Of a stretch of 64,000 nt of DNA, positions 2,985 to 40,112 are shown in pieces. The position numbers and the translations under genes were made by a program. This DNA comes from Deltaproteobacteria bacterium (GTDB taxonomy: Bacteria; Desulfobacterota; Binatia; UBA9968), in assembly GCA_016874755.1 (NCBI GenBank), contig VGTH01000001.1, forward strand, positions 1-64,000. The letters run 5' to 3'. Each line of letters opens with the position of its first letter. Position 1 is the stretch's first letter. The notes beneath the pieces are model-generated. The model made no database searches. It was not told the DNA's origin and worked only from the letters and a program-made list of their open reading frames with translations.

Positions 2985-3329
2985 TTAACGCTTGTGGCGC
3001 ATGCGTGTGCCGTACTGCACGGAGAGAAAGATTTCGTTGGCGCTCAACTCTGCGGGAAAGTAGGCGCCGGAGACTTTTGCGTCGTTGAGGCTGGCGCCTT
3101 CGAGCTTTGCCTTGGAAAAATCGACGCCGCGCAGGTTGGCGGTGCGAAAATAGCTGTGACTGAAGTCTAGGTCTGCGGCATCGAGGCCGCGGAGATCTAA
3201 GCTGCGGAAATCGCAATGGGTCAAATCACAGCGCTCACCGGCGGCTTTACGCCGGTTGAACTCTTTGACCTCGCCGTCGCGCAGCAGCTGATAGAGCGGC
3301 TCTTGATAGGTTAATGGTTTGAGTGCCAT
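2985..3329 (-). CDS. Small pentapeptide-repeat protein
   Basis: A 114-residue protein whose middle (about residues 33-95) has the A(D/N)LxX periodicity of a pentapeptide right-handed beta-helix, for example LDLRGLDAADLDFS and ANLRGVDFSKAKLEGASL. There are only about ten coils, shorter than Qnr-type gyrase mimics. The first 30 residues look helical. No signal peptide or membrane segment. Function unknown. It is downstream of ddl on the same strand (55-bp gap) and may share its transcript. Confidence 0.75.
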   Translation of the reverse strand: MALKPLTYQEPLYQLLRDGEVKEFNRRKAAGERCDLTHCDFRSLDLRGLDAADLDFSHSYFRTANLRGVDFSKAKLEGASLNDAKVSGAYFPAELSANEIFLSVQYGTRMRHKR

Positions 3330-23787: not shown

Positions 23788-24960
23788 ATGGCAGTCATGT
23801 CGCAACGCGTCGCCGGTTTCGGCACGACCATCTTCAGCGATATCAATGCGCTCGCCCTAGAACACAAAGCCGTGAACTTGGGGCAAGGAGCGCCCGATTT
23901 CGATGGCCCGCCCGAAGTTTTGGCCGCTGCCGTGCGCGCGGTCAACAGCGCGCTCAATCAATATGCGCCGGGAGCGGGAATGAAAACCGCGCGCGAAGCG
24001 ATCGCGCGTCACGCGGAACGTTTTTACGAACAAAAACTAAATCCCGACAACGAAGTCTTGATCACCACCGGCGCCACTGAAGGAATGTTCGCCGCGATTC
24101 TCGGACTTGCCGATCCCGGCGACGAAGTCATCGTTTTTCAACCGGTGTATGACACTTACGTACCCAACATGGTGATGGGCGGCGTGATGCCGCGCTACGT
24201 CACGCTGCGCGGCGATGGTTGGAATTTCGACCCCGACGAATTGGCCAAAGCGTTCACCTCGCGCACGCGCGCGATCATCGTCAACACGCCGCACAACCCG
24301 ACGGGAAAAGTCTATGCGCGCGAGGAGCTGCGCATCATCGCCGATCTCTGCGTCAAGCATGATGTCGTCGCCATCACCGACGAAGTCTACGAACATATCG
24401 TCTATGACGACGCCATGCACACGCGCCTGGCGACGTTAGCCGGCATGCAAGATCGCACCGTGACGATCAGCAGCTTGGGAAAAACCTTCAGCGTCACAGG
24501 TTGGAAAATCGGTTGGGCGACCGGGGCCGCTCCATTGGTCCACGCGGTCAATCAGGCGCACCAATTCATTACGTTTGCGGTTGCGTCGCCGTTGCAAGCC
24601 GCGGCGGCCGCGGCGCTCGACTTGCCGTTTAGCTTTTACGAGAACTTACAGGCAACCTACCAGGCGCGCCGCGACCGCATGGTCGAAGTATTGAAAAAGG
24701 CAGGATTCAAAGTGCTAAAATCCCAGGGCAGCTATTTCATCATGGTCGACTGGCGCAATGTGGCGCCGGCGCATGTGGAAAATGACATGCAGTTTGCCCA
24801 ATGGCTGATCAAAGAGATCGGCGTTGCCTGTATTCCCGCCAGCCCGTTTTACCGGGACGCCGACAAGCCGCTGGCGAAGAACTTTGCCCGCTTTGCGGTG
24901 TGTAAGAAAGATGAAACGCTTGACGGGGCGGCGGAGCGACTGCTGAAACTGGCGGGTTGA
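23788..24960 (+). CDS. Class I/II PLP aminotransferase
   Basis: A 390-residue fold-type I aminotransferase (aspartate/kynurenine/methionine type). LGQGAPDFDGPPEV is the N-terminal arm, NTPHNPTGKVY the substrate-carboxylate region, TDEVYEHIVYDD the PLP Asp/Tyr region, and SSLGKTFSVTGWKIGW carries the Schiff-base Lys. The C-terminal RFAVCKKDETLD contains the substrate Arg. It transfers an amino group between an amino acid and a keto acid; MetC/YbdL-like methionine aminotransferase is a good guess. GAGGAG precedes the ATG. Confidence 0.9.
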   Translation: MAVMSQRVAGFGTTIFSDINALALEHKAVNLGQGAPDFDGPPEVLAAAVRAVNSALNQYAPGAGMKTAREAIARHAERFYEQKLNPDNEVLITTGATEGMFAAILGLADPGDEVIVFQPVYDTYVPNMVMGGVMPRYVTLRGDGWNFDPDELAKAFTSRTRAIIVNTPHNPTGKVYAREELRIIADLCVKHDVVAITDEVYEHIVYDDAMHTRLATLAGMQDRTVTISSLGKTFSVTGWKIGWATGAAPLVHAVNQAHQFITFAVASPLQAAAAAALDLPFSFYENLQATYQARRDRMVEVLKKAGFKVLKSQGSYFIMVDWRNVAPAHVENDMQFAQWLIKEIGVACIPASPFYRDADKPLAKNFARFAVCKKDETLDGAAERLLKLAG

Positions 24961-32760: not shown

Positions 32761-33780
32761 TCACAGGCCGTAAAATGCCGTTGGGTTGTCTTGCAAAATT
32801 TTGTCGACCAGCCGGGCGCTGATTTTGCCGTCGCTGCGCAGCTTGCGCAGCGCTTCGATTTCCGCGGCGTTGTCGGCGTGGCCGTAGTCGGTGCCGATGA
32901 TCAGGTTATCTTCACCGGCGTATTGAATCACATGGTCGAGATCGTCATCGGTCTGGCAGGTGATGTAAATGCGATTCTCTTTCAACGCGTTTTTGGGGAA
33001 CGGTATGCCGCGGCGGGCGAAGCGGCGCGATAAATCGTGCACCGCGTAGGACAGCCATTGGGCGCTGACTTCGACGATGCCGATTTTCAATTTGGGAAAG
33101 CGCTGGGGAATCCCATGAAAAACGTAGGAGTGAAACGCGCCGATAACGGCCAATTTGAATTTGGAAAAACCCGGGTCGCTGGCAAAAAAATCGTAGGTGG
33201 TAAAGGCCCCGTTGGCCGAATGCACACAGATCGGCAGATCGAGCGCGCTCGCCTGTTCGTACAATGAATAAAAATAGGGGTCGCTCAAGCTGCGCTCGGC
33301 CTCCAGGCCGCGCAGGTAGACGCCGCAGGCGCCGTTTTGTTTGCCGAATTTAAGCTCTTCGCTAACGTGTTCGGTGCTCTGCAGCGGTGGCACGACGACC
33401 CAGCGAAAACGATCAGGTTGCTTCTTGACGATGTCCGCCATCCAGCGGTTGTAGCTGCGCGAGACGGCGAGATCGACGTCGGGACGCCGGCTCACCGGCG
33501 TAATAAAAAACGTCGGATAGATCACCTGGAAGTCGATGCCCAACTCGTCCATGTGCTGGATGCGCGCCGAGAGATCGCTCATTTCGCGCGAGGCCACGGG
33601 TAAGTCGCGCCCGACGTTGTTGCGGGGAATCACCCTTCCATCGACCATCCAATAGTCAAACGGGTCTTTGCCGCTCGTTCCGGCAACGACTCGCGGCTTG
33701 AAAGCCTTCTCCGACTCAAGCATGTAGTCCCAAGTCGACTCGTTCTCGATCACATGCGCATCTGCATCGATAACCTTCAT
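32761..33780 (-). CDS. Amidohydrolase family 2 protein (paralogue 3)
   Basis: A 339-residue protein. Opening KVIDADAHVIENESTWDYML; NGACGVYLRGLEAE; LPICVHSANGAF; IVEVSAQWLSYAVHDL; IIGTDYGHADNAAE. ATG 33780 is spaced five bases from GGAG; a GTG two codons earlier is the alternative. It is adjacent to paralogue 2, suggesting tandem duplication followed by a repeat insertion between them. Confidence 0.86.
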   Translation of the reverse strand: MKVIDADAHVIENESTWDYMLESEKAFKPRVVAGTSGKDPFDYWMVDGRVIPRNNVGRDLPVASREMSDLSARIQHMDELGIDFQVIYPTFFITPVSRRPDVDLAVSRSYNRWMADIVKKQPDRFRWVVVPPLQSTEHVSEELKFGKQNGACGVYLRGLEAERSLSDPYFYSLYEQASALDLPICVHSANGAFTTYDFFASDPGFSKFKLAVIGAFHSYVFHGIPQRFPKLKIGIVEVSAQWLSYAVHDLSRRFARRGIPFPKNALKENRIYITCQTDDDLDHVIQYAGEDNLIIGTDYGHADNAAEIEALRKLRSDGKISARLVDKILQDNPTAFYGL

Positions 33781-33824
33781 CTTCACTCCGAAACTGTTGC
33801 CGGCTGCCTCGCGCCAGTGGCCTG

Positions 33825-39522: not shown

Positions 39523-39930
39523 ATGACCTGGCAAGACAAGCTACTGACCACCAACGAACAGGTTCGCGACCTGATTTTACAGACCAAGCGCATCGCCGTG
39601 CTCGGCATCAAGACCGACGCGCAGGCTGACCAGCCTTCGGTCTACGTGCCTGCCTATATGCAGAAGGCTGGTTTCGAGATCGTGCCGGTGCCAGTGTATT
39701 ATCCTGACGCAACGGTGATCCTTGGCGAAAAAATTTATCGCAGGCTTGCGGATATCCCCGGCGATATCGACATGGTGGATGTCTTTCGCCGGCCCAGCGA
39801 TATCACCGGCCACCTGGAAGACATTCTCGCCAGGAAACCCCAGTCAGTCTGGTTTCAATCCGGCATCCGCAATGACAAAGCGGCGGAGATCTTCGCTCAG
39901 GCCGGCATCAAAGTCGTGCAGGACCGTTGA
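39523..39930 (+). CDS. CoA-binding protein (YccU-like), ending at a TGA in place of the conserved Cys
   Basis: A 135-residue Rossmann-type CoA-binding domain (PF13380 type): RIAVLGIKTD, PVPVYYPDATVILGEKIYR, DIDMVDVFRRPSDI and WFQSGIRNDKAAEIF. E. coli YccU ends DRCPAIE, and relatives DRCLMVEH. Here the frame reads KVVQDR-TGA-LMVDHRRFVGVK, so TGA replaces the conserved Cys and the homology continues after it. Read through, the protein would be 148 residues (to 39969). No clear ribosome site; length otherwise normal. Confidence 0.85.
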   Translation: MTWQDKLLTTNEQVRDLILQTKRIAVLGIKTDAQADQPSVYVPAYMQKAGFEIVPVPVYYPDATVILGEKIYRRLADIPGDIDMVDVFRRPSDITGHLEDILARKPQSVWFQSGIRNDKAAEIFAQAGIKVVQDR

Positions 39931-39969
39931 CTGATGGTCGATCACCGGCGGTTCGTCGGGGTGAAATAG
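39928..39969 (+). promoter_or_regulatory. Candidate UGA recoding site with SECIS-like hairpin
   Basis: TGA at 39928-39930 is followed by 12 bases and then a hairpin: CACCGGCG (39943-39950), loop GTT, CGTC (39954-39957), two-base bulge, GGTG (39960-39963). The loop GU is about 20 bases after TGA, inside the 16-37 range usually given for bacterial SECIS elements. The in-frame stop after recoding is TAG at 39967-39969. Confidence 0.4.
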
Positions 39970-40112
39970 TTTCGGGTTTCGAGTTTGGCGTTCCGGGTTG
40001 GTCAGAGGCTCTCAGTTGAAGATACCCCAAATTGATAGCTGTACGGGAGTCGCCGCATTAATCGAGCGTAAAGACGGGCGGGCAAAAACCCGAAATGCGA
40101 AACAGCGCGCCG

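Follow-up and report, generated by a model that had tools for sequence, protein, structure and literature searches.

The gene at positions 39523 to 39969 (forward strand) of the window, the 64,000-nucleotide stretch of DNA analyzed here, very probably encodes a selenoprotein, namely a single-domain CoA-binding Rossmann protein with Sec (U136) in place of the invariant C-terminal Cys. The frame starts with ATG at 39523 and runs for 135 residues to an in-frame TGA at 39928-39930, the proposed Sec codon, which alignment with relatives places at the invariant Cys position. If the TGA is read, the frame continues through a family-conserved tail of 12 residues, LMVDHRRFVGVK (39931-39966), to a TAG stop at 39967-39969, and the product has 148 residues. 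Replacement of Cys by Sec is the classical Sec/Cys exchange.

The read-through protein matched the Pfam family PF13380 (CoA_binding_2) with 114.8 bits against a cut-off of 22.8, over positions 1-115 of the 116 in the profile; no NCBIfam family scored above its cut-off for the candidate protein. We take the family to be the single-domain CoA-binding type that goes by the names YccU and COG1832. By phmmer, the nearest PDB sequence was that of Thermus TT1466 (1iuk, E = 3.5e-28); Pyrococcus PH1109 (2d59), of which CoA complexes have reportedly been described, was found with E = 4.6e-19. The likeness to the CoA_binding_2 proteins TT1466 (1iuk/1iul), PH1109 (2d59/2d5a), and Klebsiella 2duw extends over the full length in both fold and sequence, and the end motif DR-x-LMVEH is common to 1iuk and the candidate. 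However, where the candidate has TGA, the alignments place a Cys in 1iuk (DRCLMVEH), 2d59 (NRCMMREH), and 2duw. The predicted structure of the read-through form had a mean pLDDT of 96.4, and its top Foldseek match was again 1iuk (TM 0.85 by query and 0.92 by target). The read-through protein is thus predicted to share the fold of the solved members. In this model, residue 136 immediately precedes the last helix (137-144), which is formed by the first part of the tail, and a product of 135 residues would be without both this helix and the invariant residue.

The candidate gene was the sole family match in its own genome; thus, no Cys paralogue was found. Both neighbors lie on the opposite strand, a molybdopterin-binding dehydrogenase-type gene (divergent) and an alpha/beta hydrolase (convergent), and no operon partner was present among the immediate neighbors, so that the gene stands alone. 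Imperfect repeats of the type TTCGGGTTTCGAG were observed 3' of the gene in two genomes, at 39970-40010 in the window and at locus L018.

Within the window's genus, the gene was present in 4 of 5 genomes, and all 4 copies had TGA at codon 136; the other three congeners were 80-82% identical in protein sequence to that of the window. The fifth genome (G008), an assembly that is 67% complete, gave no match to the gene. Matches were found in 16 of 25 genomes of the family, 17 of 35 of the order, and 18 of 148 of the class. Only one extra TGA form was identified across the order and class, in G033, a single-contig genome belonging to another family; the other six copies found in its genus carry TGC or TGT. 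A phylum-wide search matched 171 of 395 genomes and yielded no further TGA form among the matches listed (about 150), two of which (G142 and G109) have a TAG inside the gene. Viral contigs contained 0 stretches that matched a DNA pattern of the TGA form.

We examined the codon at 106 loci. Seven had TGA, 90 had Cys, 7 had Ser or Asn, and 2 (L035 and L135) were unaligned there; Cys was also present in L177, beyond these 90. The loci with Ser or Asn have open frames of 323-363 codons, and their proteins are distant, with 22-30% identity. The seven TGA loci represent five distinct genes, two of the loci being public copies of others. Public draft copies sharing the congener sequence around the TGA are L062 (JAERMN010000277.1), with a record titled Deltaproteobacteria bacterium CoA_1_bin.89, and L063 (CAMDBU010000012.1), titled Syntrophobacter sp. 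SbD2 MaH-04nov19-76. When TGA was taken as Cys, column 136 was invariant in all 55 rows of an alignment drawn from the 94 rows of the tree described below. These results bear out the claim of an earlier note on this DNA that the TGA replaces exactly the conserved Cys of the family: close homologues share the TGA, and further relatives have Cys.

An alternative scenario is that TGC or TGT was misread as TGA through sequencing or assembly error. Most of the assemblies are drafts of many contigs, and an isolated internal TGA of error-like appearance does occur in L067, a copy from an Acidobacteria MAG, where it lies at base 3145, residue 49 of the matched stretch, at which the window has Gly. This lone TGA suggests a pseudogene or sequencing error rather than Sec. 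The codon at issue in the candidate gene, however, is shared by five separate assemblies, one of which is a single contig of 4.2 Mb, and we regard the chance of an error there as next to negligible.

Sequence conservation was then compared, ungapped, among the four congeners. The 30 bases following the TGA had 27 invariant positions and were the best-conserved stretch of the gene; none of the 126 upstream windows of 30 bases reached this value (maximum 25, mean 19.2). Farther on, at bases 31-60 from the TGA, 6 of 30 were invariant; the first nine of these bases contain the next stops. Third positions were invariant in 8 of 10 codons after the TGA compared to 34 of 135 before it. Likewise, conserved degenerate residues had the identical codon in 6 of 8 cases after the TGA and in 23 of 92 before it, a contrast with a Fisher p of 0.007 to be read with the non-independence of both sites and sequences in mind. 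These data show that the coding sequence is conserved on both sides of the TGA. Conservation that exceeds the needs of the protein and ceases at about the true stop is what a SECIS within coding sequence would predict.

The same comparison bears on whether the TGA is a true stop that arose by a nonsense change, leaving a functional form of 135 residues and a tail that is a relic. TGA is a common stop in the window, ending 22 of its 51 long, mechanically chosen ORFs. A relic tail, however, does not fit with the 30 bases after the TGA being the most conserved of the gene in four genomes, with frame and residues kept, nor does a functional short form fit with the loss of both the last helix and invariant residue 136. 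As described below, TGA also arose twice, with a hairpin each time, and a true stop is consequently very unlikely indeed. Because the TGA occurs in five genomes and is followed by a conserved tail, neither nonsense mutation nor sequencing error would explain it. Translation past the TGA stops of two other ORFs of the window, 23788-24960 (forward) and 32761-33786 (reverse), gives HHEGTKDTK-like and HHEVTKSTK-like peptides, which are probably a dispersed intergenic repeat.

A SECIS-like hairpin, CCGGCG-GTT-CGTCGG, lies at 39945-39959 on the forward strand. It has 6 pairs, one of them G-U, and an apical loop at 39951-39953, 20 nt after the TGA. The earlier note had also described a hairpin, 12 bases past the TGA. 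The hairpin is indeed present, but its stem begins at 14 bases, the count of 12 having been based on a slightly longer stem. The other congeners have CCGGCG-GTT-CGCCGG with equal spacing, two of the three with an extra outer A-T pair; the single stem difference in the window changes G-C to G-U, so pairing is kept. The G033 hairpin is GGTCGCC-GGC-GGCGACC, with a spacing of 23. According to the accessible part of PMC13188914, the bacterial SECIS model has a loop of 3-9 nt, a stem of 4-16 bp, G in the first two loop positions, a spacing of 16-37, and an MFE of -7.5 or lower. All five TGA forms fit this model as given there, with a 37-base MFE of -10.1 to -16.7; the window hairpin has a loop of 3, a stem of 6, G in first position, a spacing of 20, and an MFE of -10.1.

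A permissive rule, an ungapped stem of at least 4 pairs in the bSECIS position, was passed by 74 of 89 Cys forms as well, and a loose scan of the window ranked a weak, G-U-rich stem above the proposed hairpin. We report a strict rule of at least 6 pairs, at least 5 of them Watson-Crick, and a loop of 3-5 bases starting with G[G/U]. Under this rule, which was set after the TGA forms had been seen, all 5 TGA forms passed but none of the 89 Cys forms did, and all 4 congeners with the gene have the strict hairpin. The TGA forms have a 3-base G[U/G]N loop located 20-23 bases past the TGA. Synonymous recodings of the window tail passed the strict rule in 199 of 20000 cases (94-288 of 20000 across the five tails). 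Within the window, 25 of 1796 TGA triplets and 0 of the 22 TGA stops of long ORFs passed. Under this rule, the window hairpin is more than chance. Folding energy was ordinary for the window (z = -0.48), L018 (-0.68), and L020 (-0.56), and lower for L019 (-1.98) and for G033 (-2.15, from a shorter piece). Rfam gave nothing at the hairpin and two matches elsewhere, far below cut-off.

A tree of 94 rows was built from 146 kept columns with codon 136 masked; 5 rows have TGA and the other 89 have TGC or TGT. The tree excludes L062-L064, which duplicate other rows, two fragments (L033 and L035), L135, and the distant proteins L027-L032 and L034; a long-branch warning was issued for the distant rows. 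The four congeners grouped together (100/99), next to Cys-bearing copies from their family. G033 fell within its own genus, in a clade (100/99) whose other members have Cys. Two changes are forced by the starred branches, and 0 of 200 bootstrap trees had one change; constraining all five TGA forms to one clade cost 68.95 log units (p-AU 0.000355). From these sequences, TGA appears to have arisen at least twice in the order, each time with its own hairpin. With Cys on all sides, two Cys-to-TGA changes would be the simplest reading, the change count alone being blind to gain versus loss. Two rows may have mislabelled titles or contigs: L100, from a record titled Comamonas sp. KCTC 72670, is a copy nested among Myxococcaceae, and L138, from a MAG titled Klebsiella pneumoniae, is very divergent.

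Bacterial Sec biology is well established: SelA and SelD make Sec-tRNA(Sec), and SelB binds the hairpin and delivers Sec at UGA. All of these components were found above their cut-offs in the genome of the window. Two of the outcomes that the earlier note had named as refuting, a genome lacking the Sec genes and close relatives with other stops and no hairpin, were examined here, and both checks instead favored a selenoprotein. The selA gene scored 600.7 bits (cut-off 267.9), selB 411.7 bits (cut-off 242), and selD 388.2 bits, the last with an in-frame TGA inside; the three genes lie together on contig 16 (C16). A tRNA-Sec with anticodon tca (UCA) was found on contig 40 with 75.9 bits (cut-off 47). 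Among relatives, selB was present in 20 of the 25 genomes of the family, including G009 and G011, and in 9 of 10 genomes of another set, being absent from G010. Sixteen of 20 genomes searched had tRNA-Sec (none in G008, G010, G005, or G032), and selD was found in 14 of 14, with TGA inside in 13 and, in G010, as a fragment without that part. G033 has tRNA-Sec, selB, and selD. G010, which has the TGA form of the candidate gene, thus gave no selB or tRNA-Sec match and a selD fragment only. However, in this draft, assembled in about 670 contigs, selD is cut off by a contig edge beside the place that selB has in relatives, so the missing selB and tRNA-Sec are likely a gap in the draft. In G024, two places (L151 and L162) have equal-scoring tRNA-Sec, a duplication or assembly redundancy.

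The SelD genes of the order provide an internal control. They likewise have an in-frame TGA and a 3' hairpin with a 3-base G[U/G]N loop, and they are found in the same genomes, although SelD is an unrelated protein family and its hairpin loop is at +33 rather than at the +20 or +23 of the candidate. In the window's own genome, the TGA of SelD, a known selenoprotein family, is followed by a hairpin of 9 pairs whose GTG loop lies at +33. The strict hairpin rule was passed by 5 of 7 SelD genes; L164 and L172, from the window's genus, failed.

The UGA could also be read otherwise, either by a near-cognate tRNA or through genome-wide reassignment of TGA. Reassignment was rejected, since a codon that ends 22 of the 51 long ORFs is not reassigned. 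The conserved tail by itself would be compatible with programmed read-through; however, the TGA stands in for an invariant Cys, and the genome has the full Sec machinery in addition to a SECIS-like hairpin, which makes any such decoding very unlikely. Taken together, the sequence data favor a selenoprotein, and we infer actual Sec insertion at this codon. The UGA at 39928-39930 would be decoded by SelB carrying Sec-tRNA(Sec), SelB would be recruited by the hairpin just 3' of it, and translation would terminate at the TAG at 39967.

The earlier note knew of no described selenoprotein of the CoA-binding family, and the literature accessible to us agrees. PMC13188914 (2026) is a catalogue of 119 prokaryotic selenoprotein families or subfamilies. 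In its accessible text, Table 1 has no entry for a CoA-binding protein, and PF13380, COG1832, and YccU are absent. As far as their accessible text extends, neither "CoA-binding" nor "YccU" appears in the 2022 catalogue (PMC9312934), and neither "CoA" nor "YccU" in the deep-Sep paper (PMC12013277). No article on a CoA-binding, PF13380, or COG1832 selenoprotein was found in open-licence PubMed Central full text. By name, the catalogued selenoprotein closest to the candidate, and one linked to CoA thiols, is an FAD-dependent oxidoreductase (CoA-disulfide reductase), which the available portion of PMC13188914 gives in Table 1 under TIGR03385, unlike the PF13380 of the candidate. The candidate is very likely a selenoprotein of a family outside the current catalogue, a Sec variant of a known Cys family. 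No known function for the CoA_binding_2 family was found in our literature searches, which, among the titles they returned, gave no article on the function of the family for PH1109, TT1466, or YccU.

Regarding chemistry, the pKa is 5.2 for a selenol and 8.3 for the Cys thiol, as given in the accessible part of PMC13188914. We conjecture that U136 could act as a redox-active selenol, that its partner in a Se-S bond could be either a substrate linked to CoA or the thiol of CoA bound to the protein, and that its place at the start of a helix could leave the selenol readily deprotonated. More speculatively, the protein might work as a CoA-dependent redox enzyme or sensor. A tentative proposal is a selenium-based CoA redox enzyme or sensor built on a Rossmann rather than a thioredoxin fold, in which Sec lies next to bound CoA and bonds reversibly (Se-S) to its thiol; we consider this possible but somewhat doubtful.

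The selenoprotein reading would add a protein family to the selenoprotein catalogue, beyond the thioredoxin-like fold that is found in most characterized selenoproteins (PMC13188914, accessible part). The two origins of TGA in one order, beside Cys sister lineages that have Sec machinery, offer a natural case in which to study the emergence of a SECIS within coding sequence. Sec at a site strongly indicates a reactive redox residue, and its presence here would therefore mark the invariant Cys of a widespread family as chemically active. If the proposed reaction of Sec with CoA is true, a redox role would also follow for this Cys throughout the family.
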